This document shows, one piece after another, positions 2,105-16,277 of a stretch of DNA of 35,830 nt; within the stretch, counting starts at the first letter, position 1; every line of letters begins with the position of its first letter. The notes below the pieces were generated by a model. The model worked only from the letters and a program-made list of their open reading frames with translations. It was not told the DNA's origin and searched no databases. A program made the position numbers and the translations under genes. The stretch spans positions 1 through 35,830 of the IMG/VR virus record IMGVR_UViG_3300010883_000161; one strand, written 5' to 3'. The stretch is from a virus.

Positions 2105-3082
2105 CTAATCGAGATACTGGTATCCCTTCGGTAAACCCCAAACTTTCGCTTGCCCTACTACATCTGAAACGGTCGCCGCAACCCCATACCCATCAATTAC
2201 GAAACCGCCCATCGGAACAACTCCGACTCCGGTGCAATACAAACGTGCCCCTGCAACGGACCCGCTCCTGGGGGTGGGTACTGTGTCGGGATGGTTCTTA
2301 TAGACGACTTCTCCGTAAGCGTGGATTAAACCGTTTTTCGCGTGGCATGTAATCGAGCCATTCACAGACGAAAAGAGATTATTACCAACAAACCGGCCAG
2401 GGTCAGTGCTCCACGTGCCTGCCGGTTGAGTGATGGACGTAAGCGGAACGCCGCCAACATCTGTTAATGACGTTGAAACTAAGCTCTGAAGTGTCCCGGT
2501 CGCTAACGGCAATGTTCTGATCTTAATAGCCATATCTTGTTTTACCGGGTAGATGCCAATAAGTTCGAGTATCACGGAATCGTAGGTGTCGCTCCAATCA
2601 TCTCCCACAAGTCCAGCGACATTAAGAGTCAGTACAGAACCGCCGGGGTCGCTACTGGCTTCAGCAAGTAATTCAAATTGATTGACTTGCTCCTTTTGCA
2701 TGGCAGTTCGATCGAACGCACCATTGATAGACAATGCGGTAAACGAATCACTTTCGTTTGTGTCAAAGTCGGTCTGTAACAGCGGAACCGCACGACGGAT
2801 TTCCCACGTAATACCTACAAAAAAATCAGTTGGGGGGTCTAGTACGGTTACAACTCCAGATGACGACGATTGTAGGCCGTCCACGCCGCCGCCAGTCAGT
2901 TGATAGTGCCCGGATACTGTTCCATCCGGTGCCTTTGTGAGTAGAAACTCAAAACCGGTCAATTCTATTCGTAACCACACCTCCACTTCTTCTGCCGAGA
3001 AAAATGGGAACACCGTATCCAGTGAGGCAGCGGCACCAGTGCCGTCGTATCTCACTGTCTTTACGCTGCTAGTGACGGTCAT
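2105..3082 (-). CDS. Tail fibre paralogue 2, T7-fibre-like N-terminal domain
   Basis: A 325-aa fibre. The N-terminal ~140 residues match the T7 gp17 N-terminal adaptor pattern, including YDGTG near the start, the WEIRRAVPLLQTDFDTNES stretch and the helix with FDRTAMQKEQVNQ. The adaptor normally docks the fibre to the tail tube. The C-terminal part (WSDTYDSVILELIG... VNGSITCHA... ending KVWGLPKG) is a beta-rich receptor-binding type domain that resembles the C-terminal part of the adjacent fibre at 3110-4009. The Shine-Dalgarno AGGGGGA lies about six bases from ATG 3082. It is much shorter than T7 gp17. Confidence 0.8.
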   Translation of the reverse strand: MTVTSSVKTVRYDGTGAAASLDTVFPFFSAEEVEVWLRIELTGFEFLLTKAPDGTVSGHYQLTGGGVDGLQSSSSGVVTVLDPPTDFFVGITWEIRRAVPLLQTDFDTNESDSFTALSINGAFDRTAMQKEQVNQFELLAEASSDPGGSVLTLNVAGLVGDDWSDTYDSVILELIGIYPVKQDMAIKIRTLPLATGTLQSLVSTSLTDVGGVPLTSITQPAGTWSTDPGRFVGNNLFSSVNGSITCHAKNGLIHAYGEVVYKNHPDTVPTPRSGSVAGARLYCTGVGVVPMGGFVIDGYGVAATVSDVVGQAKVWGLPKGYQYLD

Positions 3083-3109: not shown

Positions 3110-4009
3110 TCATCGGTTTGGTAGTCCCCAGAATCTAAACTTGCCGACGAACGTGCCTCCTGTCGGCTCAAAATGGAACCCCTCCAAGCTCGTGTAAGGG
3201 CCACTCCCAACAAAGTAAACACTAGCCCCCGCTATACCAAAAGAAACGCTATCCCTGTAAACGTATTGGCCTGAGCCGAATAGTTTGTTATCTCGGGCGT
3301 GAAACGTGATTGAGCCGTTTACCGCTGATTCGGGATCGGGATCAATGAGCACCGTAGAATCGGTGCCCCAATCGGTTGTGGTTGCAATAGATGTCGACGA
3401 GTCGGAACCTTTAACCGTTGAGACCACACTGGATAAACCCGAGCTGCTTGCACTTCCGTTGTCGCGTACAGAAACCAACATTCGAGCCGCTGATGTCGGG
3501 AATACCCCGTAGAACTCAAGGCGCACAGAATCGTAGATGTCGGTCCATGCGGAATTATCCGGCGTATGAACAAACATTCCAGAGACACCGCCAAGCGACG
3601 AGATTTGATCCAGTAATACCCACTTATTTAATTGCTGCGTTTGCATTACAGCGCGATCAAAAGCACCTTCGACGGATAATGCGGCAAAAGGATCACCCTC
3701 GTTTACGGCGAAGTCGGTCTGTAAAATCGGGATATTACGACGAATCTCCCACGTATCAGTAGCGAGGAAATTCGTAACGCCATCTACGGGGGTCACTGTT
3801 CCAGTAGATGACGCTTGGTTTCCAGAAGCCCCGCCGCCGCTCACGGTGTAATCGGTGTCGCGTACTAGCAGGGTGGAAACTCCTGTTGACTCTATCCTTC
3901 GCCACACTTCTACGTCGGAGTCCTTGAAAAACGCAAAGACTGTAGCCAGCGGTGTGTTTGCGCCAGTGCCGACGTACCTTTTGGTTTGCGTCGTGGTCGA
4001 TACTGTCAT
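3110..4009 (-). CDS. Tail fibre paralogue 1, T7-fibre-like N-terminal domain
   Basis: A 299-aa fibre with the same plan as its neighbour at 2105-3082. It has an N-terminal T7-like adaptor (YVGTGANTPL, WEIRRNIPILQTDF, FDRAVMQTQQLN) and a beta-rich C-terminal domain (DIYDSVRLEFYGVFP, VNGSITFHARDN, ending FRFWGLPNR). ATG 4009 overlaps the stop of the giant internal protein (ATGA at 4006-4009). The shared plan over the full length shows an ancestral gene duplication. The C-terminal halves have diverged more than the adaptors, as expected for receptor-binding tips. Confidence 0.8.
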   Translation of the reverse strand: MTVSTTTQTKRYVGTGANTPLATVFAFFKDSDVEVWRRIESTGVSTLLVRDTDYTVSGGGASGNQASSTGTVTPVDGVTNFLATDTWEIRRNIPILQTDFAVNEGDPFAALSVEGAFDRAVMQTQQLNKWVLLDQISSLGGVSGMFVHTPDNSAWTDIYDSVRLEFYGVFPTSAARMLVSVRDNGSASSSGLSSVVSTVKGSDSSTSIATTTDWGTDSTVLIDPDPESAVNGSITFHARDNKLFGSGQYVYRDSVSFGIAGASVYFVGSGPYTSLEGFHFEPTGGTFVGKFRFWGLPNR

Positions 4010-7000
4010 TTTTCATCCTCAAAAAAGGTGTTCGACGCACCAACGCCGGGATCTGTTTCTAACGATTCGATTGCTTCCAGCCCAATTTTAGCCACTTCAT
4101 TAGCTTGCCTGTACAAAAGGTCTATCATCTGACGCTTCTCTTCCACGGGAATATCTATTTTCGGATTCGATATTACGCGAATTAGTCGGGACACGTCTGA
4201 AACGGTCGATCTCAACCCCTGAAAATCAATCATGGAAAGGTCTCCGTATTTATCTAAAAGAGCCTGGGATTCATCGAAATCCATAGTTGCTAACTGATGC
4301 TTATAGGTTTCAGATATTTTTTGGGCACGGAATGATTTCTCATAAAATTCCGTGATGTAATAGGTTCCCATCGAAGGTTGACGAACTTGGTATCCACGTA
4401 TGAATGGGTTGTCCGATAGATTCTCTGGTATCTTTTCGTTATTTGGCAGGATGCCCAATTCACGCCCCGCCTTGTCCACGAGGCGCATCGCCATTCGCCC
4501 CACGCCACCCCCCCAACCAGTAACGAAGTTTTCCAATACGATCGGCGATGACAAGAAGGAATCGTCTAGCCCTGGTAATTCAGAAATTGCCATTCCGAGT
4601 GCTTTCGATAATTCCGTTGTATAGGGATGGAACTGCTGAGGGGAGAGAAAACCTTCTAAGTAAGCGGGGACTAGCGGCGTCTTTTGGAAAGTTTTCTTGT
4701 TTGCCCAGACCTCTGCTATGGGAACCGCTACGGTAGGCAAAAAGCCGGGGACAAAATCCTGAGACGTCGTTAAAAGGAATTCGTTGAACACATCGGGGTC
4801 TTTTTCTATCAGCGTTTCTGCGATCTTCTCAGTCCCCGTGCCAAAGAGCATTCCGACTTCAAACGGCTTCGGGAACTTGTAGACAATATCGCCGATTTTT
4901 ACCGGCCAAGTAGTTTCCTTCACCCAAATTGGTAGATTCTTATACCAATCTTCATCACGGTTGTTTAGGTACAGAAGGAGCGATCCGATCGCTAACGGAG
5001 TGACCTTCATCGTTGCTCGCTTCGGGTTGTTCTTAAATTCGAGAACCAACCTTCTACTACCATTCAAGTCCGCCCCGAAAAACGGAACTAGCATGTTCAC
5101 GGGTTTTGACATTTTGCCAAGAATATTGAAGTCGAGTCCCACATTGCGAGCGTCCAGGCCCGCTTTGTAGACATTTTCTTTGGTCCGCTCTTTGCCCTTC
5201 ATAGCGATTTTGAACTCTCCGACACGAGTTCCCAATTCACTAAACTCTGATAAAACCTGCAAAGTTTCAAGCGGGGTTTTTACGACGTTCCGTACAGATT
5301 GCACCACGCCACCTGTGCCCATCATCTCTTCAAGCGTTTCTTTCGTGTATTTACGGTCCAGAGACACGAGTGATGCTTGTGGTCCCCCGCTTACCTGAAA
5401 GTCCTGAAAGGCATCATCTTTTAGAACTAAAGACCCCCAGCCGGAAAACACATTAACAAATGGTATGTAAGTGTTTTCAGAAAATAACCCCGCCGTAAAT
5501 TGATCGCGCCACGGGTTGCGGGCAATGAACCCCGGTGCGAGTACCGCGCCAGCGCGCAAAGTTGTTGCAGCAGCCCGTGCGACCCTCCAAAAAATATGTT
5601 GGCTGGCTGGTTCTGCCGGAGCGAACCCTCGATAAACTTCAGGATCAATTTCCCATATAGTTTTCACACCACCGTCAAAAACTGCGATCTGCCCCGGCTG
5701 CTTGCTGAATCCGTTGGGTCGAAATATAGTCAGCTCGGATTCGGCGAACTCCTCCAGAAGTTCAGCTTCCGCCTCTGTTAAGTCTATCTCTTCGCTCCAC
5801 TTCTTAATGGCACGCTTTATTTCTTTCGCATCCACCTTGATAGGCTTGATCTTCGTCTTCACCCTTTCTGCGATGTCAGTACGCCCATGTTTTTCCGCAA
5901 GTCTTGTGAGCATCAATCCTACTTGATTTTTGTCAGCCGCTTTAATGAACAGATAAGTGTTTTTAATATCTGATTCAAGTGGATTTACAATGTCAAGCTC
6001 GCTGCCGAAAAACCTGAATAATGGGTTGTCGCCGCTTCCGCTTAGCTTCTTGCGAGCGATTGACTGGTCATCCTCCATCACACGATTCAGGGGGGCGTAG
6101 TTTTTTCCTGTAGCGAGCAACAACTCAAATAACTCAGGGCTCAGCACACCCGCATCGCGCAGGTATTCAAGGATGTGATGTCGAAACTCAGCAAGTTCCA
6201 CTGCGATAGACTCAAACTCTTCCCGGCCTTCTTCCACTGTACCCTGGGCAATATCCAAGTCGACGCCCGTCCGTGAGGTTAAAACACCCTCATCGTCTAC
6301 CCGCGCAACTTCTAGCGTGCGCTTGGAAATGATATAAGCTGAGAAGTCTTTTAGTCTGCCGGAAATCGGCATGAGAATATCTTTGAAGCTACGCCCTACA
6401 ACGGCATTTGTGTGGAAGTCACGCGGCCCGTATTCAAGGAAACTTGTTGCCCTGGATTCCGATGCCGGTAGTAGCTGCATCAGCTTTGCGGGGTCGTCCA
6501 AAATTGGCAGCGCATCCTTGCCACCCGCCGCTTCAGCCACAAACTTGTTAAGTGGAAACTCATTGTGAAACCAGTCTGCATAAATGGATTCAAAGAACTC
6601 GCGAGGGCTTCGTCTTTTCTGTTTAGCAGCAACGAACGATATGTGTTCTTTGACTTGATCTGTCGCGCTCTTTGTCGTGTTCGGTTCACGAGGTGGCTCG
6701 CTTGGTGGCTCGCCGCCTCCCGGTGGAGCGGGGGGCTTCGGGGGTGTGGGCGGTTCGGAGGGCGGGGCGGCGGGGGCTTCAACCGTACCCTTGGCAGGAG
6801 CGCGGGGCGGCGCGTAATCTGATATGTCTAGGTCTATGGTTCCACTGGGGGCTATGCTTTCGGCGGTAGCTTCTGGTACTGCGGGCTTCTTGGCAAACTC
6901 GACAACTTGTGAAGCCCCAAACACCTCGCGGAGTCGCTTTACGTTGTCGATACCGGCGGACTCGTCAAAGTCACGATACAGACGAACATTGACAATCACC

Positions 7001-10000
7001 CCGTCGTGACCGAGAGACTCGATAGCAGAGCGCACTTTCTTCAGGATTGGAACCCAATCCGCAACTTTCATCGGAAGAGAGTCGCTTTTGCTCATTCCAG
7101 CAAGGGTTTTAATCTGACCATCCGACTCAAGAACGTATGGGTTTTCAAGTCTGACAGTGAGCGACTCTACGTCAGGCCCAAACCTCTCGGCAACAGAACT
7201 CTCTAGTGCAGAATATCTGCCTTCGCCCAAGGCTGGTCCGTTGGCGTCTGCCGCGTAGACAGAATCAGACTCTTCTCGTCCGCTGCCCCTATGAACGTCA
7301 AGCTCTACGCCTTCGCCGGTCTTTACATTGCCCCATATATCAGCAGCCGCATCCCGATCGCCAAGTTTAAGACCCTCTACACCCTCCGCGCTAAACTTCG
7401 GCTCTGCCTTCGGAAGTTCTGCGCGGGGGGTGGCCTTCGCGCTCGCCACAAATTCATCGAACGCTTGAGGTTTACCGAATACGATGCCGGGGCTTGGCGC
7501 GCTTGACGAGCCTGTAACCCATTCCCCCCACTGGTTTGTGAGGATTTCCGTCTTGCCTGCGGAATTTGTCATGGAGCGAAGTTCCGAGACTGATACAATT
7601 TCTGTAGCGGCAACGGAACCCCGCACGCCGACCTCATAACCTTCAATAACAGTTTTCGGGTCATCCGTGACTAGGCCACTCTCCGGGGTCTCGACCTTGA
7701 TGACATAGCCGGGTTTGCCATCCGATGGGCTTTTGTCCCATGACGAGAAGCTGCCGCCATAGCTTCCGGCTGTATGCGGTTTGACCGCGTAGCTAGTCTG
7801 GCCTTGCTGTGATTCAAAACTACCCGACCCGGTAGATTCGATCTTCCCTTCCCTGAGAATGAATTGCATCTCTTCATAGGAAACGCCGCGATAGATGTAT
7901 CCGCTATCCTCTTCAAATGGGACAGAGTTCGAGTAGCCTGAGTTTGGCTTTAGCGTGACTTGTTTGAAACCTTTTTCCGTTTCGACTAGCTCTGATATTC
8001 TTTCGTCGTAGAAAAAATTACCGTCAGGATGCTTTTTCCAATGCGGGGATGGTTTCGGTTCCATGTGAACTATGAACCGATAATTTTTCGGGTCAGCAGT
8101 AACCTCCGCTTGAGCTATTGGCGTGTCGCTAAAGTCACGATTTACAGTTTCTATTCTGATGTCATACCGACCAGAATCCGAAACTTCTCTGAACCGCTGC
8201 GTTAAGGGATTATCTCGAACCTCCTCTGGTAGCGAGTCCATCGGGTTAGGACGATCCATTACCTCGGCGGCGCGGGGGGTGGACAACGCAGGGTGGTCCG
8301 AGGGCGTATGGAACGAAACCCTTTTATCTTTGACCGCCTTTGCGTGGGCTTCTTGACCATCTACCCTGTGCGTTTCTTCGACGTTAAGGTTCCGGTAAAA
8401 CTCTTCCGTCGAAAGAACCGCACCTGAGTCAACGTCATACACGATCTCATTTTTTTCGACCCAAGCGTGTAGGATTCGCTTTTTCTCGCCTTCTGGGGTT
8501 CGACCATCCAAAACGCCTTCAACAACTTCGCCTTCAATCTTATGGGCAAGTTGGGTCGCGCATTTAATGCACAGAGTTTTGGTTTTTTCTCCGCGAAACA
8601 TCTTCTCCATAATTGCGCCCTCGGGCGTGCTCAATTGATGGAATTCCACACTTTGCTCGGCGGGTTGCTCGGGGTCGACTGATCCTTGTTCCGCTTCTTC
8701 CAGCCGCTTCTCAGCCTCTTCCAGTAGGTCACGCTTGCGCCCACCCTTTGCGGGCATGAGCCCAGCCTCGCGCAACTCTGCCACCTTCATGCGCTTGATG
8801 GCTTCGACTGCCTCGCGTGCCTCGGCGCCTGCCGGGGCTTCGGGGCGGGGGGTGGGGGCGTCATCAACAACACGAAGCCCCAGCCTCTCTCTTAGCATCT
8901 TTCGCTTCGCAGCCGTGTTCTCGGCTATTTCGTCGGCGGTGAATTTCTGCGGAAGTCTATCAAGACCCGTCTCGGCGTCCCAATCCGTCTCGGCGTCCCA
9001 ATCCGCGAATTGCCCTGATGTCATCCCTTCGGTTAGCGGCAGCGAGGCGTCCTCTAATTCAGAGAGCATCTCCTGTGCTCTGCGTATTTCAAACTCGTTC
9101 ATACCCGCGAGCTTTTCTTCAGGAATCCGATAACTATTTACGTCAAAGCCGTTCTCTTCCAGCAAGTCCCGAAGGATGTACCAGTCCAAAACCTCCTGCC
9201 TGTAATTAGGATCATCTTCAGGGTGTATTTCGTCAGACGCTAACGGCCTAACAATCTCTACGTCCTCCGTGTGCTCAAAGCGTGGCTTTGCTTCGGCGAC
9301 TCCGGCGGCTTCGGGGGTGGGGGGAGGGACTGGCAGTTCTTTGCCTGCCAATGCCGCCGCTGTCTCAGGCCCAACCTTGTTTTCTAGTTCAACAATTATG
9401 TCTTCTGGTTTGGGCTCAACCTCTTTGGCGCGGTAGGCGCGAGGCTCCGCGTCGAAATTGACCGATAGGATGTCTTCTTCAATATCTTTGCGTTTTTGCA
9501 GGTCACGAAAAACCTCTTCCGGCGTTCGACCCGTTGTCGCATACGTCTTGGCGAACGCTTTAGTGAGATGAGGTTGGAGCCTTTTCGCACCTCCCCGTCC
9601 GGCTTTTAACATGCTAAGGATGATGGCTGCGTCGGTAACGTCGTGCCAATTGGGGATTTTGCCTTCTAATGCGGAGGCAACACCTACCATTGTGGCGACT
9701 TCTGCCGCTAGACCCGCAGAATTGGAGACAAGGGGCGTAAGCCTATTGCTGCCCATGATTTGCGGTACAGCGAATGGAACGAAATGCCCAACGGCCCCTA
9801 CGGACCCGCCGACCACCTGGCCCTTGGCTGTATCAATCAACGCCGCGCTCATTACATCGACGAACTGCTCGCTTGTTTGAATGCTCCCATTTTCGTAGAG
9901 ATTCATCAAAACGCTTCTCAACCCGGCATGTAAGCCGAAAGCCCCGGCTGTGCCGGTCGCTGCGCTGAATAACCCGCCACCAGAAGCAGCCCCCATGACC

Positions 10001-10599
10001 CCGCCCGTAAAGTAAACGGGAAGGTCTAGGACAACTGTGGTTAGCTGGGAGGCAATACGATCGAATGCAGCCGCATCTTCCGCAAGTTGTTGGTCAGGCG
10101 TCTTTTCGCGTAACATCATCCCCGCAATGGATTGCTGGGCACCAACATTAAAAGGGTGTACGAGCCTTTCCGCCGTAGCGAAATCCGCTCCTTCTTCACC
10201 TACCTTGTCAGGCCCAGCGCCTTCCATACCCGGAGGCCACGGCACCGAGTTGGGCGTTTCCGATAGGAAGTTCGTAACCAGTTCCGAGAACGTATAGTCT
10301 GCGTTTCCCGTGGCTTCGCCGTCTGCCGTGGCTTCGCCGTTTGCGCCGGCTGGCTTCTGGCCTAGTTCCTTGATCGACTCGCGAAACTGTTCTTGGATTG
10401 GTTCTGGGTCGAATGTCGGTATGGTCGGGAGCGAGAAGTGCCTCGCAATTTCGTTTTCCGTATAACCGCCAGATTCTAAAGCCGAAACAGTCGGGGCGAT
10501 GTGGGCCGCAATCTCATCTTCCGTAAAATTGTTCTCGCGTAGTAGCGAAATTATATGCCGATCATCTCCGGCACCCGGTTCATCGAGATCGTCTGTCAC
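4006..10599 (-). CDS. Giant polyvalent internal virion protein with ART-like, thiol-protease-like and LPD38-like regions
   Basis: About 2,197 aa from GTG 10599, which overlaps the upstream stop as GTGA; a GTG at 10632 would add 11 residues. Regions seen: small acidic helices (1-75); a Gly/Ala-rich hydrophobic segment (~185-330); a SAP-like stretch (~602-640); a possible papain/transglutaminase-like domain with Cys677, His711 (HAWVE) and Asp722 (~650-760); an ADP-ribosyltransferase-like domain with YRG (Arg904) and a late Glu1000 (~895-1010); a second ART-like domain with HRG (Arg1104) and LGHDGVIV (~1080-1240); a proline-rich hinge (~1260-1310); and a long C-terminal part resembling LPD38 of large polyvalent proteins (RNPWRD, GTRVGEF, PFFGADLNGSRR, PKPFEVGMLFGT; ~1320-2050). 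It lies after the gp14-like and 644-aa proteins, where T7-type phages encode the large ejected protein. Entry into the host with enzymatic activity is inference. Confidence 0.8.
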   Translation of the reverse strand: MTDDLDEPGAGDDRHIISLLRENNFTEDEIAAHIAPTVSALESGGYTENEIARHFSLPTIPTFDPEPIQEQFRESIKELGQKPAGANGEATADGEATGNADYTFSELVTNFLSETPNSVPWPPGMEGAGPDKVGEEGADFATAERLVHPFNVGAQQSIAGMMLREKTPDQQLAEDAAAFDRIASQLTTVVLDLPVYFTGGVMGAASGGGLFSAATGTAGAFGLHAGLRSVLMNLYENGSIQTSEQFVDVMSAALIDTAKGQVVGGSVGAVGHFVPFAVPQIMGSNRLTPLVSNSAGLAAEVATMVGVASALEGKIPNWHDVTDAAIILSMLKAGRGGAKRLQPHLTKAFAKTYATTGRTPEEVFRDLQKRKDIEEDILSVNFDAEPRAYRAKEVEPKPEDIIVELENKVGPETAAALAGKELPVPPPTPEAAGVAEAKPRFEHTEDVEIVRPLASDEIHPEDDPNYRQEVLDWYILRDLLEENGFDVNSYRIPEEKLAGMNEFEIRRAQEMLSELEDASLPLTEGMTSGQFADWDAETDWDAETGLDRLPQKFTADEIAENTAAKRKMLRERLGLRVVDDAPTPRPEAPAGAEAREAVEAIKRMKVAELREAGLMPAKGGRKRDLLEEAEKRLEEAEQGSVDPEQPAEQSVEFHQLSTPEGAIMEKMFRGEKTKTLCIKCATQLAHKIEGEVVEGVLDGRTPEGEKKRILHAWVEKNEIVYDVDSGAVLSTEEFYRNLNVEETHRVDGQEAHAKAVKDKRVSFHTPSDHPALSTPRAAEVMDRPNPMDSLPEEVRDNPLTQRFREVSDSGRYDIRIETVNRDFSDTPIAQAEVTADPKNYRFIVHMEPKPSPHWKKHPDGNFFYDERISELVETEKGFKQVTLKPNSGYSNSVPFEEDSGYIYRGVSYEEMQFILREGKIESTGSGSFESQQGQTSYAVKPHTAGSYGGSFSSWDKSPSDGKPGYVIKVETPESGLVTDDPKTVIEGYEVGVRGSVAATEIVSVSELRSMTNSAGKTEILTNQWGEWVTGSSSAPSPGIVFGKPQAFDEFVASAKATPRAELPKAEPKFSAEGVEGLKLGDRDAAADIWGNVKTGEGVELDVHRGSGREESDSVYAADANGPALGEGRYSALESSVAERFGPDVESLTVRLENPYVLESDGQIKTLAGMSKSDSLPMKVADWVPILKKVRSAIESLGHDGVIVNVRLYRDFDESAGIDNVKRLREVFGASQVVEFAKKPAVPEATAESIAPSGTIDLDISDYAPPRAPAKGTVEAPAAPPSEPPTPPKPPAPPGGGEPPSEPPREPNTTKSATDQVKEHISFVAAKQKRRSPREFFESIYADWFHNEFPLNKFVAEAAGGKDALPILDDPAKLMQLLPASESRATSFLEYGPRDFHTNAVVGRSFKDILMPISGRLKDFSAYIISKRTLEVARVDDEGVLTSRTGVDLDIAQGTVEEGREEFESIAVELAEFRHHILEYLRDAGVLSPELFELLLATGKNYAPLNRVMEDDQSIARKKLSGSGDNPLFRFFGSELDIVNPLESDIKNTYLFIKAADKNQVGLMLTRLAEKHGRTDIAERVKTKIKPIKVDAKEIKRAIKKWSEEIDLTEAEAELLEEFAESELTIFRPNGFSKQPGQIAVFDGGVKTIWEIDPEVYRGFAPAEPASQHIFWRVARAAATTLRAGAVLAPGFIARNPWRDQFTAGLFSENTYIPFVNVFSGWGSLVLKDDAFQDFQVSGGPQASLVSLDRKYTKETLEEMMGTGGVVQSVRNVVKTPLETLQVLSEFSELGTRVGEFKIAMKGKERTKENVYKAGLDARNVGLDFNILGKMSKPVNMLVPFFGADLNGSRRLVLEFKNNPKRATMKVTPLAIGSLLLYLNNRDEDWYKNLPIWVKETTWPVKIGDIVYKFPKPFEVGMLFGTGTEKIAETLIEKDPDVFNEFLLTTSQDFVPGFLPTVAVPIAEVWANKKTFQKTPLVPAYLEGFLSPQQFHPYTTELSKALGMAISELPGLDDSFLSSPIVLENFVTGWGGGVGRMAMRLVDKAGRELGILPNNEKIPENLSDNPFIRGYQVRQPSMGTYYITEFYEKSFRAQKISETYKHQLATMDFDESQALLDKYGDLSMIDFQGLRSTVSDVSRLIRVISNPKIDIPVEEKRQMIDLLYRQANEVAKIGLEAIESLETDPGVGASNTFFEDEK
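8969..9004. repeat. 18-bp perfect tandem duplication inside the giant gene
   Basis: Two exact 18-bp units (8969-8986 and 8987-9004). On the minus strand they encode the repeated hexapeptide WDAETD/WDAETG in a linker of the giant protein. The duplication keeps the frame, so it probably reflects replication slippage in a tolerant linker. Confidence 0.95.
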
Positions 10600-12530
10600 T
10601 GGCACAGGCCCGTTCTGGCACACCACTGCCACGAAGTCTCATTAGGCAGTCTTTCGAGTTCGGGTTCTTCAGTCTTTTCAATCAATTGACCCGCTTCATT
10701 GATATTTCCGTGGTTCTCTTCAGCCCATTTACTAGCCGCTTCGATGGCTTCTTCCTGGGTGCCACCAAATTGAGGGTATTTGTCTAGGCCGTGCTTGCGC
10801 GCAATGGCTTTGGCTTCCTCATCCGTTAGCGGTTTCCCGTCCACCATCGTCGGAATAACAATCTCCTTGCCTCCGGTCTCATCTCCAAACCAAAAACTAC
10901 TGAGAACGACGTTACTTGCAGTGCCATCTCCGTTGTCCACCATTGGGTGTGATGTTGGGAAACCTTGCCACGTAGTAGCCTTTGGAGTTTCAACCGCGTC
11001 TGGAGGGGCAATACTAAAACTATTGATAGTATCTTTAACTTTAAACATGAGATCCACGGCTGTTTGCACCTTTTTGGTCAGGGGCGAAACGAAATTGCCG
11101 ATGCTTCTACCTACGAATCTTTTGTTTTTGGGATCGAGCAAATCGTCCGGCGTCAAACCTTCTTTGATTCCATCGTCAAATAATCCCCGTGCGTGATTGT
11201 AGAACCTTGAATAATCTGCCAGCCCTGCCGGGTCGCTGTTGGGGACATTTGACGGCGTGACCAAAAGGGCTAGAGCCGATTTCATATATTCGGCGAACAT
11301 TTTTTCTTTGATCTTGTTTGCAGGAACTTGCATAGCCTCAACCCGGTCTCGCAAGGTGGGGAAATAACTCCCGCTTAAACCACCTTTTCCGAGGAACGGA
11401 ATCAATTGCTGTACGGAGTTAATGTGATCGTCAGCTTCCGTATCGTTTACCCTGCGTAACAACTCAAATTGTACAATTGGGTTGCCTTCGCCAACTAATA
11501 AGCCTTTATTCTTTTTTTCAAGTTCACCCAGGAAATGTTCTTTGGTCTTAAAGTCGAGAGTAGAATCCAGCACGTTTTGAACGGTCAATACGGTTTCGGG
11601 ATCTTCGTCGTTTATTCTTTCAACAAAGTCTGAGGCTTCGGCCTCTTGTACTTCTTTTTCTAGCTTGTCGCGAGCGGTTTGGGCGGCGTCTTTTGCGGTA
11701 TTGATGGACCGCTGCAATACAATTCTTTCCTTAGGCTTGATGGTTGTTGCTTCTTCCAATGCCTCTTCAGCGGCATCAACATTTATATCAGCTTCAGAAG
11801 GATTGCGAATTGCCTCCTCGATGTAATTAGAAACAGTGTCGTACTCTTTTTGATTTTCGAGCGCCCCTAACTTCACCTGCCAATCTTCCCATTGTCCCTC
11901 TCGCTTTTCTATCGGAACCCAATCACTTTCGGCAAACAGTTCTTGAGCTTGCAAACCATAAATTGCTTTAATAGCAGGATCATCAGATTGGGCGGCTAAG
12001 ACCAAAAGCCCTTCGGCATTACTGTTTAGTGCTGAGAGACCTTGTTCCTGTTGGCGCTCTCCCTGCTTAATCTGAGCATTTTTTGTGTTCGTAAGCTGAA
12101 TGTTGAAGGTTTTTTCCTTAAACATCTTCAACGCGGGCGGCTTTAAGCCCTTGCTTAAATCTGCTAGTAGCTTTTCTTGATCTTTATTAAACTTCTCGGC
12201 GCTTTTGTTAATATCATCATCGTTGGACATTTCCTCTAGCTGCGAGACCGACGCTTGGCTGAATTTTATTGTCGCGGAATTTGCGGCATCGCGATCAATC
12301 TGTGCGTCCAGGCGGGCTTTATGTTCCGCTGCGTATTTGGCGTCTTTCTCTTTTTGCGCGTTTAGACGGTCATTATATGCCGCTGCGAACCCTATAAGCT
12401 CCCCCCCTAAATCTGCCGCCGATTCGATATTCCTCGCATTTGCGTTGCCTACCGCAATAACTTGATTCAGGTCCGTAGGGGTGTACGAAATCTTATTGGT
12501 ATTGATCCCTACCTGTGGGATTTTCGGCAT
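10596..12530 (-). CDS. Internal virion protein, long helical (gp15-like position)
   Basis: A 644-aa protein, mostly charged and helix-prone with long Lys/Glu/Ala/Gln stretches in its first ~330 residues (for example NDRLNAQKEKDAKYAAEHKA), consistent with a coiled-coil virion core or ejection protein. Near the C terminus (~524-617) is a module widely seen in phage virion proteins: an NGDGT turn, EIVIPTMVDGKPLTDEEA, then a helix ending in KWAEENHG. The start ATG 12530 overlaps the preceding stop (TAATG), and its own stop overlaps the giant gene. By position it corresponds to T7 gp15, but direct similarity to gp15 is not visible. Confidence 0.7.
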   Translation of the reverse strand: MPKIPQVGINTNKISYTPTDLNQVIAVGNANARNIESAADLGGELIGFAAAYNDRLNAQKEKDAKYAAEHKARLDAQIDRDAANSATIKFSQASVSQLEEMSNDDDINKSAEKFNKDQEKLLADLSKGLKPPALKMFKEKTFNIQLTNTKNAQIKQGERQQEQGLSALNSNAEGLLVLAAQSDDPAIKAIYGLQAQELFAESDWVPIEKREGQWEDWQVKLGALENQKEYDTVSNYIEEAIRNPSEADINVDAAEEALEEATTIKPKERIVLQRSINTAKDAAQTARDKLEKEVQEAEASDFVERINDEDPETVLTVQNVLDSTLDFKTKEHFLGELEKKNKGLLVGEGNPIVQFELLRRVNDTEADDHINSVQQLIPFLGKGGLSGSYFPTLRDRVEAMQVPANKIKEKMFAEYMKSALALLVTPSNVPNSDPAGLADYSRFYNHARGLFDDGIKEGLTPDDLLDPKNKRFVGRSIGNFVSPLTKKVQTAVDLMFKVKDTINSFSIAPPDAVETPKATTWQGFPTSHPMVDNGDGTASNVVLSSFWFGDETGGKEIVIPTMVDGKPLTDEEAKAIARKHGLDKYPQFGGTQEEAIEAASKWAEENHGNINEAGQLIEKTEEPELERLPNETSWQWCARTGLCQ

Positions 12531-12976
12531 TAAGTATCCTGGCTTTGCAAATACGAGGCACCTGCCCCGATCGCACCCGTAACGCCGCTAAGAATTGACC
12601 CGGTAGCATTGGCTCTAGCAAGTGCTGAGGCCGCGCTTCCCTGACGTTCGATCGAGGCGGCTTGGTCGTTTCTGGATTGTATGGCACGAATTGCGGACAT
12701 TTCGGTTTCCGCAATAGTTTCGGCCATTACATCAAGCGGGGTGCCAGAGTTTACATCGACGCCACTCCCGCCGAAATTAAGCCTTTGCCTACCTTCCAGC
12801 CGCCTACCTTGGCGCAGTATTTGTTGTGCCTCTTCAGGCCCGAGTTTTCGGACAGCCTTGGCATCAGCTTTCGCTATTTTTTTCGCTCTCCTGGCGGCTT
12901 TCTTTTTCGCGCTCGATCCCAAAATTCCGCCAAGAATCGAAGTTCCAACTTGAGCGGCAGCCGCGTATCCAGCCAT
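12530..12976 (-). CDS. Internal virion protein, gp14-like
   Basis: A 148-aa protein. It has an Ala/Gly-rich hydrophobic N terminus (AAAAQVGTSILGGILGSSA), a Lys/Ala/Arg-rich helix (KKKAARRAKKIAKADAKA), and then the pattern QQILRQGRRLEGRQRLNF followed by GSGVDVNSGTPLDV. This is a recurrent signature of T7 gp14-type internal or DNA-ejection proteins. The C terminus is again Ala/Gly-rich (GSILSGVTGAIGAGASYL). It lies between tail tubular protein B and the 644-aa internal protein, the same order as in T7-like virion modules. Confidence 0.75.
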   Translation of the reverse strand: MAGYAAAAQVGTSILGGILGSSAKKKAARRAKKIAKADAKAVRKLGPEEAQQILRQGRRLEGRQRLNFGGSGVDVNSGTPLDVMAETIAETEMSAIRAIQSRNDQAASIERQGSAASALARANATGSILSGVTGAIGAGASYLQSQDT

Positions 12977-12978
12977 AG

Positions 12979-15717
12979 TTATCGTGCTCCCGAACTGCCC
13001 ATGACGTTCATGGCTAAAAGGTTGAAACCAACAGGCAAAGTCTGACGTATTTGGATGACTTTTTCGCGATCGAAACCACCGTCAAGAATCACCTTTATAT
13101 CTCCAGTGAATGGGGCAGCGGGTGAGCCGAACACATCCCCCGCCTGACGCTCGATTATGTTTGTCCAGTTGGCGACATTTCCATCCCATTGATTTACACC
13201 CACTTCCCCGGCTTGCGAGTCAAACAGCCTCAACACAACATGGTCGGGACGTGCCATCTTCCCCATAGAAGCACCTTCCGGGTCATCCAAGTCGAGTGGC
13301 AACGACTCAAAGACGGACGTATAGCCGAGACCCGCAATTAAATTTGCGTGGGCTTTTGTAGTTGTCACGCGCCCAATGCCCGAAGTGGGCTCCGTTACGA
13401 TTACGTCGGGCAAAACGCCGCCATCACCAAGCACCTGAACAGTTTCTCCGATCAAGTGCCCGAAGGTGTCGAAAGTTGACGCCGATGGGCCACTCGACGG
13501 AGTATGCTGCGCGGGGTGGCTGTCCACAAATTGCTGAGATGACGAAACCCCGTCTAACCATTCGTCCTCAAAAAACTCGATATGACGGACTTGAGTCGCT
13601 CCCTCACCAGTACCTAAAGTACGCTTAACGACTAGCCAAACGCGATCGAATGATCCACCTGTATTTTTGTCTACCGAAACAGACTCGACCAATCCATGAT
13701 CCGCTACAACGCCACTATTATTAAATGAACCGCCGAGTTTATGCGTGTGCCACGCAAAGATTTTCTCTTCTGGAACGTAAGTGCAGCCCAATAGGACACC
13801 ATCACTACGCGCGAGCCAAATAATGTTTCGCCGATCGAACTGGTAGTCCATATCTACGATAGAGAGAGTGCGGCCAAATACGTGCCGCGCGAGTAACGCG
13901 AGATCAAATGGTTTTTGTTCTTCTCGGGAGTCTGCCCCATCGTTGCTTTCTATTGATCGGAGACCCTGCGAATTTTTGGTGACGTAGGCCGTTTCGAGTG
14001 CAACATTGACCGGATAGAGGGAACTAACGCCAACGGATGAAATTTTAATACTGTTTGTGTTGTTCGGGCCAAACGGTTCGCCGTCAAGCGTGCCGCGTAA
14101 TGAAAAGATTGCTGAGTTAGTGCCAATCAGCAGCTTTTTGCTCGTCGTAAGCCAACGAACGATATGGATTTGGCCGTCGAATATACCAAATCGCACGCCG
14201 TTAGTAGCAACTACAGACTTCGCGGCATCAACTGCCGTTGTACGCATCACATTAAGCGAGCCTGTGTTACTCGTTGACACGAAGTTTGGCATTGTCGGTT
14301 CGCCCGAGAAACATAAACGCTGCTCGGCTAGAGCCACCGTTGTAGGGTAGTTACCCCCGTACCAAGCCCCTAGATGCCATTCAAGGAGAGCCCCTGGGGC
14401 TCCTCCTATAGTCTGGAACACGATCCCGCTTGCAACAGTTTTGAACGAACTTGGCAAGCTATCAATAATAATATAACCGGGGGCCGTTCCGGCATCGTTC
14501 AACCGTATCATGCGCCCGATGTCGTCTAAACCAAACCCCGCTCCGTCATTTACTGCGTCAAGATCCGATGCGGTAACGGAACATCGTCCCAAGAAAGCGT
14601 GGTTAGTGGTCGTGGCAGCGCCATCACCCTCGTCCAGAAAAGGACCGTCGATAAAGTCGACGTCGACTAGCTGCCACTCCCCATTGGGGTTATCGGTTGT
14701 TCTTTGAATTATCCGCGTCAGTTGAGCTGGCCGGTGGTTTTTGTGGACGATGTAGAGCCGCTCCGGTGACTGTGCAAACCGTATATCTTGGATTTCGTCA
14801 TCTAAATAAGTTGTCGCAATCTCGGTTTTCAAGGCGTCCGCAGGAGGACTTAACGGACTCGACACGAAATTCCAGGGAAGAGGTTGATTGCTGCTGATAA
14901 TAGTTACCGGTGCGCCGCCGGGTGTTAGCGAAAGCTGAAATTTATCTCTGAGCCCGACCTTAGCTTTGAAGAACTCAAAGGTTCCGACACCCGCTGAAGT
15001 TATGTTAATAATTGAGCCTACTGATACTGTGGACACTTGAAAGTGATCCGCATCAACTACGGTGACGAAATAGTTTGTAAACCCATCAAGGCCCCCCGGA
15101 AATTCCAAATCGTTTCCCGTTGGCGCGATTCCCCTAATTCTGAACGGGCCAGCTTGGGATAAGTAGCCATGCGGGGCGTTTGTACCTATCGTATCGGTAG
15201 CGATGTCGACGCCCGAGGGACACGACATCGTAGAGTTAGTGTCCTGCTTTATGTAATAGTCAACACCGAAACTTAGGCCATTGGGCGGGGTGCCGGTGGT
15301 AATCCGAAACGGGCCTTGCCCATCCCGATAGCCGTGACCAGTCCTGAAAATAGAGTTAGGGACAGTGCCCACCGGGTCGGCGAATAATTTAGGATCTGCC
15401 GGGTAATCAAATTCTCTGTCAGGTATTTCAATGATGCTCGTACCCGAGAATATCCGAATCGTGTTTTGCGAAAACTCAAGCTGATACGACGAGCCATCGC
15501 CAGAAACAAACGGGGTGAGAATCGAAGTCCCACCACTAGAAGCAGCAGCGGTTACATACCGCGTTCCACTCCTTCGGTGAAGCCCACCCTCTGGCGTAAC
15601 AATGAAGTTTTCGACTTTCTTTGCGCCAGTGGTGTATTTATCAATGTCTGTACGCCCACGGACTTCCGGCGCTAGAGTTCCACCGCTGAACGCATCTTGT
15701 TTATGGGAGAACCTCAA
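12979..15717 (-). CDS. Tail tubular protein B-like (T7 gp12-like nozzle)
   Basis: A 912-aa tail protein. The N-terminal region FSGGTLAPEVRGRTDIDKY with AKKVENFIVTPEGGLHRRSGTRYV is characteristic of gp12-type tail tube or nozzle proteins, which extend the short tail and connect to the fibres. The rest is long beta-rich repeats. The start is TTG 15717: it forms TTGA with the stop of the preceding gene and has GGAGAG six bases upstream. A TTG at 15738 would add seven residues but lacks that site. It is longer than T7 gp12 (about 790 aa). Confidence 0.85.
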   Translation of the reverse strand: MRFSHKQDAFSGGTLAPEVRGRTDIDKYTTGAKKVENFIVTPEGGLHRRSGTRYVTAAASSGGTSILTPFVSGDGSSYQLEFSQNTIRIFSGTSIIEIPDREFDYPADPKLFADPVGTVPNSIFRTGHGYRDGQGPFRITTGTPPNGLSFGVDYYIKQDTNSTMSCPSGVDIATDTIGTNAPHGYLSQAGPFRIRGIAPTGNDLEFPGGLDGFTNYFVTVVDADHFQVSTVSVGSIINITSAGVGTFEFFKAKVGLRDKFQLSLTPGGAPVTIISSNQPLPWNFVSSPLSPPADALKTEIATTYLDDEIQDIRFAQSPERLYIVHKNHRPAQLTRIIQRTTDNPNGEWQLVDVDFIDGPFLDEGDGAATTTNHAFLGRCSVTASDLDAVNDGAGFGLDDIGRMIRLNDAGTAPGYIIIDSLPSSFKTVASGIVFQTIGGAPGALLEWHLGAWYGGNYPTTVALAEQRLCFSGEPTMPNFVSTSNTGSLNVMRTTAVDAAKSVVATNGVRFGIFDGQIHIVRWLTTSKKLLIGTNSAIFSLRGTLDGEPFGPNNTNSIKISSVGVSSLYPVNVALETAYVTKNSQGLRSIESNDGADSREEQKPFDLALLARHVFGRTLSIVDMDYQFDRRNIIWLARSDGVLLGCTYVPEEKIFAWHTHKLGGSFNNSGVVADHGLVESVSVDKNTGGSFDRVWLVVKRTLGTGEGATQVRHIEFFEDEWLDGVSSSQQFVDSHPAQHTPSSGPSASTFDTFGHLIGETVQVLGDGGVLPDVIVTEPTSGIGRVTTTKAHANLIAGLGYTSVFESLPLDLDDPEGASMGKMARPDHVVLRLFDSQAGEVGVNQWDGNVANWTNIIERQAGDVFGSPAAPFTGDIKVILDGGFDREKVIQIRQTLPVGFNLLAMNVMGSSGAR

Positions 15718-16277
15718 AAGTATCTCTCCGTAATCCAACTATTCTGCTCGATCTTGCGTTGCTTATCCTCTTGACCGTCCGCAGTTTTTGCGACTCGCAA
15801 TGCCTCTTGAAACTGCGATTGCATCTGATCGACCACCGTGCCCGTTTGCGACAACGATTCGGCCCACTCATAGGCGCATCTTGACGCGAGCGCCTCTCTA
15901 AATGCAATGTCCATATCATTCTCGGAGACTCTGCCCACGTAGATAATCTGAAGCGGCGCGTCTAAATCGGTTACGATTGTATTCCCTTCCTTCCTCCACT
16001 CTTCGTCACTTCCGTTATTCACGGTGTAAAGACGCAAATTATCCGAAGGTAGCGTGAACTGGCGGGCGAAACCCCATGCGGGCTTTGCCGTGTCCGCTGC
16101 AAGAGAAATTCGTTTCATCGCAAAGTTCCACGGACTTCCACGCAACAACGCATCGCGAATCTCTTCGTAAGTAGCGTTTGCAATACGCGCTTGTGGCGAT
16201 TGGTCTGTTCGCGAGGTAATGGGTTGCTCGCCCAGCTTTCGCAGTCCCGCGTTAATAATGTCTACATCGGACGCCAT
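15714..16277 (-). CDS. Tail tubular protein A-like (T7 gp11-like gatekeeper)
   Basis: A 187-aa protein. DVDIINAGLRKLGEQPI at the N terminus, ATYEEIRDALLRGSPWNFA (~35-54), WGFARQFTLPSDNLRL (~66-83) and the C-terminal helical region with FREALASRCAYEWAESLS are the standard pattern of tail tubular protein A, the ring between portal and nozzle. AGGAG lies seven bases before ATG 16277. It overlaps the gp12-like start (TTGA) and is close to the length of T7 gp11 (196 aa). Confidence 0.88.
   Translation of the reverse strand: MASDVDIINAGLRKLGEQPITSRTDQSPQARIANATYEEIRDALLRGSPWNFAMKRISLAADTAKPAWGFARQFTLPSDNLRLYTVNNGSDEEWRKEGNTIVTDLDAPLQIIYVGRVSENDMDIAFREALASRCAYEWAESLSQTGTVVDQMQSQFQEALRVAKTADGQEDKQRKIEQNSWITERYF

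Follow-up and report, generated by a model that had tools for sequence, protein, structure and literature searches.

The window, a viral DNA record of 35,830 nt, encodes a giant protein that is best explained, with a probability of roughly 0.6, as an ejection protein with effector cargo inserted mid-protein, namely the third internal protein, and the largest, of a short-tailed phage of the T7-like kind. Its gene stands in the position of T7 gp16, its two terminal modules recur in relatives that mostly carry little between them, and one domain within its insert recurs in three other giant phage proteins.

A giant gene in the T7 gp16 position

The giant protein of 2,197 aa is encoded by an uninterrupted minus-strand frame with a GTG start at position 10599 and a stop at 4006-4008. 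The frame covers 6,594 of 35,830 nt (18.4% of the viral record), in agreement with an earlier note on this DNA that had described a protein of about 2,200 residues occupying nearly a fifth of the genome. The frame shares GTGA with the stop of the upstream gene and ATGA with the start of the downstream gene (4 bases each), the usual sign of translational coupling. Among the 171 other listed ORFs of at least 60 aa, 169 are shorter than 600 aa and the other two, of 644 and 919 aa, are nearby virion genes, so the giant frame lies far beyond chance. The giant and its neighbors are arranged as follows.

3110-4009, minus strand: tail fibre protein, resembling the N-terminal part of phage tail fibres (phrog_13893, E = 6.5e-13)
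4006-10599, minus strand: giant ORF, 2,197 aa, in the T7 gp16 slot (ORF and synteny)
10596-12530, minus strand: internal protein in the gp15 slot, 644 aa, candidate partner (58 loci have a homologue next to the giant on its upstream side)
12530-12976, minus strand: gp14-like internal virion protein, 148 aa (phrog_418, E = 2.5e-18)
12979-15738, minus strand: tail tubular protein B (phrog_376, E = 2.9e-117)

PHROG profiles identify the neighboring genes as terminase large subunit, head-tail adaptor, capsid, tail tubes A and B and a gp14-like protein. The gp14-like gene is followed by the 644 aa protein, which has no PHROG match, then by the giant and two fibre proteins. The order of portal, scaffold, capsid, tail tubes A and B, gp14-like, gp15-slot, giant and fibre genes recurs in HTVC034P, Lederberg, HTVC204P and ct8d5349. 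The locus is thus of T7 gene order with the giant in place of gp16. In the ejection-protein cluster as reviewed, a gp14-like gene is followed by gp15 and then by the larger gp16 (PMC8954989); the giant is the third gene of such a cluster, with the gp14-like gene assigned by phrog_418 and gp15 by position only. The slot after the internal virion genes that the earlier note had proposed is borne out by this order and by the gp15-slot homologue found upstream in 58 loci.

Several further observations concern the surrounding genes. The two fibre genes of the window (2105-3082 and 3110-4009, minus strand) are tandem paralogues with 39.9% identity over 321 columns (E = 1e-63). In the relatives L002-L005, an acetyltransferase gene separates tail tube B from the gp14-like gene, while none is present at this point of the window (12976-12979). 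In two other loci (L093:15526-18750 and L094:15815-19111) the slot is filled by a protein of 1,075-1,099 aa without detectable similarity to the giant, and tail tube B is 36-38% identical to that of the window. By sequence comparison the slot is kept there, with the protein apparently replaced or diverged beyond recognition. Both loci were candidates for close relatives by tail tube B and were rejected for the unrelated protein in the slot.

Two conserved modules and a variable insert

To collect relatives, viral contigs were scanned with an alignment of the C-terminal part, keeping 80 of 242, and about 85 were compared overall. Most relatives are about 1,200 aa long and consist of an N-terminal module joined almost directly to a C-terminal module. 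The two modules were handled separately in the comparison and leave-one-out HMMs were built without the window protein. The giant is divided into the following parts.

9409-10551, minus strand: N-module, residues 17-397 (leave-one-out HMM, E = 5e-70; common to cargo-free relatives)
6583-9408, minus strand: insert, residues 398-1339, 942 aa (most relatives lack it)
6565-6816, minus strand: proline-rich linker, residues 1262-1345 (23% Pro)
4051-6582, minus strand: C-module, residues 1340-2183 (leave-one-out HMM, E = 7e-230; phrog_9854, E = 5e-72)
4459-4953, minus strand: LPD38 domain, residues 1883-2047 (PF18857, E = 4.3e-39)

The LPD38-like part named in the earlier note is confirmed by PF18857 at residues 1883-2047 (135 bits against a cut-off of 27), and its proline hinge corresponds to a stretch at 1260-1345 with 23% Pro. 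LPD38 was the only Pfam match to the giant and an NCBIfam search gave no match. The hydrophobic part described earlier holds only in that the N-terminal region is mildly hydrophobic: no 19-residue window reaches a mean hydropathy of 1.4 and no clear membrane helices are seen by this measure. A backbone model calculated on the relative L018 is helical and of moderate confidence (pLDDT 63, pTM 0.52), with no Foldseek match in the PDB below 0.001. Neither the PDB profile search nor Foldseek with this moderate-confidence model matched the family to T7 gp16 or to another ejection protein of solved structure.

The presence of the N-module coincides with that of the gene in the gp15 slot. In 58 loci, an iterated profile search placed a homologue of the 644 aa protein immediately upstream of the giant. 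Among loci with at least 900 bases upstream of the giant, N-module and gp15-slot gene occur together in 55 of 55 and are both absent in 21 of 21, a count inflated by kinship. In L065, the C-module nests among those of N-module bearers on the tree, yet both the N-module and the gp15-slot gene are missing. The N-terminal part of T7 gp16 binds gp15 (PMC8954989). From the co-occurrence, L065 included, and the T7 interaction we infer that the gp15-slot protein is the binding partner of the N-module.

The region between the modules is where relatives differ. In 63 relatives with both modules the linker has a median length of 66 aa, and in 14 of these it exceeds 200 aa. The added residues of these 14, some of which are near-identical to each other, are located at the same place as the insert of the window. 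The cargo differs by phage, comprising a zeta-toxin-like kinase, a histidine phosphatase, other stretches or nothing: L016 carries His_Phos_1 (8e-41) and Zeta_toxin (9e-11), L034 carries Zeta_toxin (2e-16), and L021 contains stretches in which a likeness to ART and ParB domains is visible by eye. Cargo-bearing relatives sit on separate branches of the C-module tree, which suggests that cargo has been gained repeatedly; the branch of the window is long and its placement unsure.

Added domains are also seen elsewhere in this protein group. In relatives without the N-module (L044, L049, L050, L058, L062, L063, L067 and L071), the C-module is followed by 560-807 aa, which offers a second site for added domains. 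One LPD38 protein (L074:5093-12520) has an N6/N4 DNA methylase domain upstream (E = 1.2e-17).

A probable ART-like domain within the insert

Queries with the whole insert returned nothing in viral contigs, genomes, phages, plasmids or the PDB. A model of the insert gave only dsRNA-binding and similar Foldseek matches in the PDB (E > 0.05), which are meaningless at its pLDDT of 46. The earlier note had divided this region into several enzyme-like parts, which correspond to the following features.

6835-7359, minus strand: ART2 domain, predicted, residues 1081-1255 (45-53% identity to three LPD38 giants; Foldseek BFVD, E = 7e-8)
7510-7917, minus strand: ART1 candidate, residues 895-1030 (motif only, YRG...)
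8320-8652, minus strand: thiol-protease-like candidate, residues 650-760 (motif only, Cys in a helix followed by a HAW strand)
8680-8832, minus strand: SAP-like stretch, candidate, residues 590-640 (no Pfam match at E <= 10; SAP and Rho_N in L095)

A short query with ART2 identified homologues at 45-53% identity in the viral contigs L095, L096 and L097, all within giants of 2,852 to 3,905 aa that contain the LPD38 module. An ART2 alignment used as query recovered only the same three viruses in viral contigs and nothing in genomes. The L097 copy, ca. 48-50% identical to that of the window, matches most of the ART-PolyVal profile PF18760 (E = 5.4e-4, profile positions 6-126) at 21.2 bits, below the family cut-off of 31.2. 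The ART2 domain of the window itself has no Pfam match and no PDB match by profile or Foldseek. Searching PF18760 directly in 22 records gave no match, and neither did an hhalign comparison of the ART2 alignment with a confident PF18760 domain; a single hhalign comparison with the second ART-like domain of L095 gave 75% probability. The Foldseek search of BFVD matched the ART2 model to a large polyvalent protein of an uncultured phage (E = 7e-8). Together, these comparisons make ART2 a probable, divergent ART-PolyVal domain.

In the pattern typical of the ART superfamily, [HR]G is followed by GxGxY and later by an acidic residue. In the four ART2 copies, the Gly and Tyr positions are invariant and the catalytic positions are occupied by His/Arg, Tyr and Glu/Gln/Val. 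At the late position the window and L095 have Glu, L096 has Gln and L097 has Val, and because of this variation the activity of ART2 is considered putative.

The domains found around ART2 vary among its hosts. In L096 (4413-12968), the ART2 copy of the 2,852 aa LPD38 protein is immediately preceded by a GGDEF (diguanylate cyclase) domain. In L095 (3456-15170), ART2 of the 3,905 aa LPD38 protein adjoins a Rho_N domain, and the protein also contains SAP domains and a second ART-like domain.

The earlier note had named a lack of enzymatic folds at residues 600-1250 as a ground for its refutation; on this point structure prediction gave a mixed outcome, separating ART2 from the remainder of the region. 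AlphaFold returned a fairly confident alpha/beta domain at residues 1089-1239, with block means mostly 67-90 and near 50 at weak loops. Residues 600-1088 yielded a low-confidence model since no homologues were found for an alignment (single-sequence AlphaFold); block pLDDT is ca. 35-65 in the thiol-protease-like stretch and below 40 in the ART1 candidate. The ART1, thiol-protease-like and SAP-like slices have no relative in Pfam (E <= 10), PDB sequences, phages, plasmids, viral contigs or genomes. Of the two ART-like parts proposed earlier, that at 1081-1255 is consequently upheld by transitive evidence while the first, at 895-1030, is a motif for which no relative was found. The proposed SAP-like and thiol-protease-like parts likewise gained no support from these searches, and all three are kept as motif-based candidates that the analysis did not refute.

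The insert could alternatively be a structural or spacing element, or a decayed remnant, within an otherwise ordinary ejection protein, with no enzyme acting in the host. Most of it lacks a recognizable relative, cargo-free relatives such as HTVC034P are evidently viable and the catalytic positions of ART2 vary, all of which fit this explanation. However, confident enzyme families occupy the same slot in relatives, and 45-53% identity of ART2 across very different giants is unlike the drift of a spacer. On balance, we regard a spacer or remnant as doubtful and favor an ejection protein carrying effector cargo.

Probable delivery and relation to known systems

Iyer et al. (2017, PMC5512222) described polyvalent proteins with their LPD38 domain, noted that they are encoded among virion genes and proposed their delivery; LPD38 was reported only from polyvalent proteins of the phage type (PMC5512222). 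The earlier view of the giant as a polyvalent-type protein among internal virion genes is well supported by LPD38, the T7-like gene order and the 58 loci; one chain combines LPD38 with one probable ART-like domain and is encoded among late virion genes. By analogy, a role in the virion is supported as well. Mass spectrometry of purified JC1 virions ranked the LPD38 protein gp69 second, on the strength of 51 unique peptides (PMC9144972). The C-module of PTXU04_00025, a long-form protein of an E. coli phage, is a homologue of that of the window (24% identity over ca. 750 residues, E = 2e-28); PTXU04_00025 is needed for plaque formation and belongs to a set of seven genes that on expression either were toxic or disturbed infection (PMC11879866). 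Synteny and the detection of the JC1 protein in virions make it likely that the giant is delivered with the DNA. Every delivery step is drawn by analogy, which would also suit a late protein that is produced during infection and stays out of the virion, but the slot between internal virion and fibre genes, the overlapping start and stop at both ends and the presence of the JC1 LPD38 protein in virions make that explanation highly improbable.

As an ejection protein, the giant would be packaged through its helical C-module (LPD38), which may also help carry DNA across the inner membrane, while the N-module would dock with the gp15-slot protein. On infection, the giant would exit the head with its gp14-like and gp15-like partners, and the insert between the modules would in consequence enter the host cytoplasm with the first DNA. 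In the published model of T7 gp16 within the envelope, the central part of the protein lies in the cytoplasm and is flanked by two membrane regions (PMC8954989); a similar layout, if adopted by the giant, would place the insert on the cytoplasmic side. There, ART2 would modify a host macromolecule and the remaining insert stretches would act as well. The takeover or anti-defence role raised in the earlier note draws no support from these results. A different function would be that of a DarB-kind anti-restriction protein, which travels with the DNA and protects through DNA binding, with no modification of host proteins. Several LPD38 proteins do have methylase or helicase parts and JC1 gp69 was called DarB-like (PMC9144972), but the Pfam search of the giant found no methylase, helicase or DNA-binding family, and we consider this function improbable.

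Like the LPD38 polyvalent proteins of phages (PMC5512222), the giant is a large, probably multidomain protein encoded among virion genes, with its probable enzyme domain upstream of LPD38. In contrast to them, it possesses a second conserved, N-terminal module tied to a gp15-slot partner and carries its cargo between the modules, with one enzyme domain supported and no metallopeptidase found. It resembles T7 gp16 (PMC8954989) as the largest internal protein, last of the gp14-gp15-gp16 set and mostly helical. The giant is however ca. 880 aa longer, contains an insert and has no detectable sequence or fold match to gp16. No Pfam match to a transglycosylase domain was found in its N-terminal region; to our knowledge, the gp16-type N-terminal transglycosylase is phage-specific and absent from P22-like phages. 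The HTVC010P-type pelagiphage proteins, such as HTVC034P gp44 (1,229 aa), share slot, neighbors and homologous N- and C-modules, but have 44 aa between the modules in HTVC034P instead of 942 aa. JC1 gp69, a Bcep22 DarB-like protein (PMC9144972), similarly has LPD38 near its C-terminus and takes up over a fifth of its genome, whereas it differs in its length of 4,515 aa and in having transglycosylase-, methylase- and helicase-like parts, which are not seen in the giant.

A limited literature search found no earlier description of a division into a constant carrier, accompanied by a partner gene, and a slot for exchangeable cargo. Polyvalent proteins were earlier proposed from mixtures of domains; the present comparison separates carrier from cargo, the carrier being defined by the cargo-free relatives of ca. 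1,200 aa. We tentatively suggest, at somewhat less than even odds, that the gp16-slot ejection protein is a general protein-delivery carrier of short-tailed phages, in which unrelated enzymes are swapped between fixed modules and threaded, along with the first DNA, into the cytoplasm of the host. Dozens of phages allow the place of insertion to be recognized, and two questions thereby become testable in cultured phages, namely whether the inserted enzymes are delivered to the cytoplasm and what effect they have on the bacterial host.
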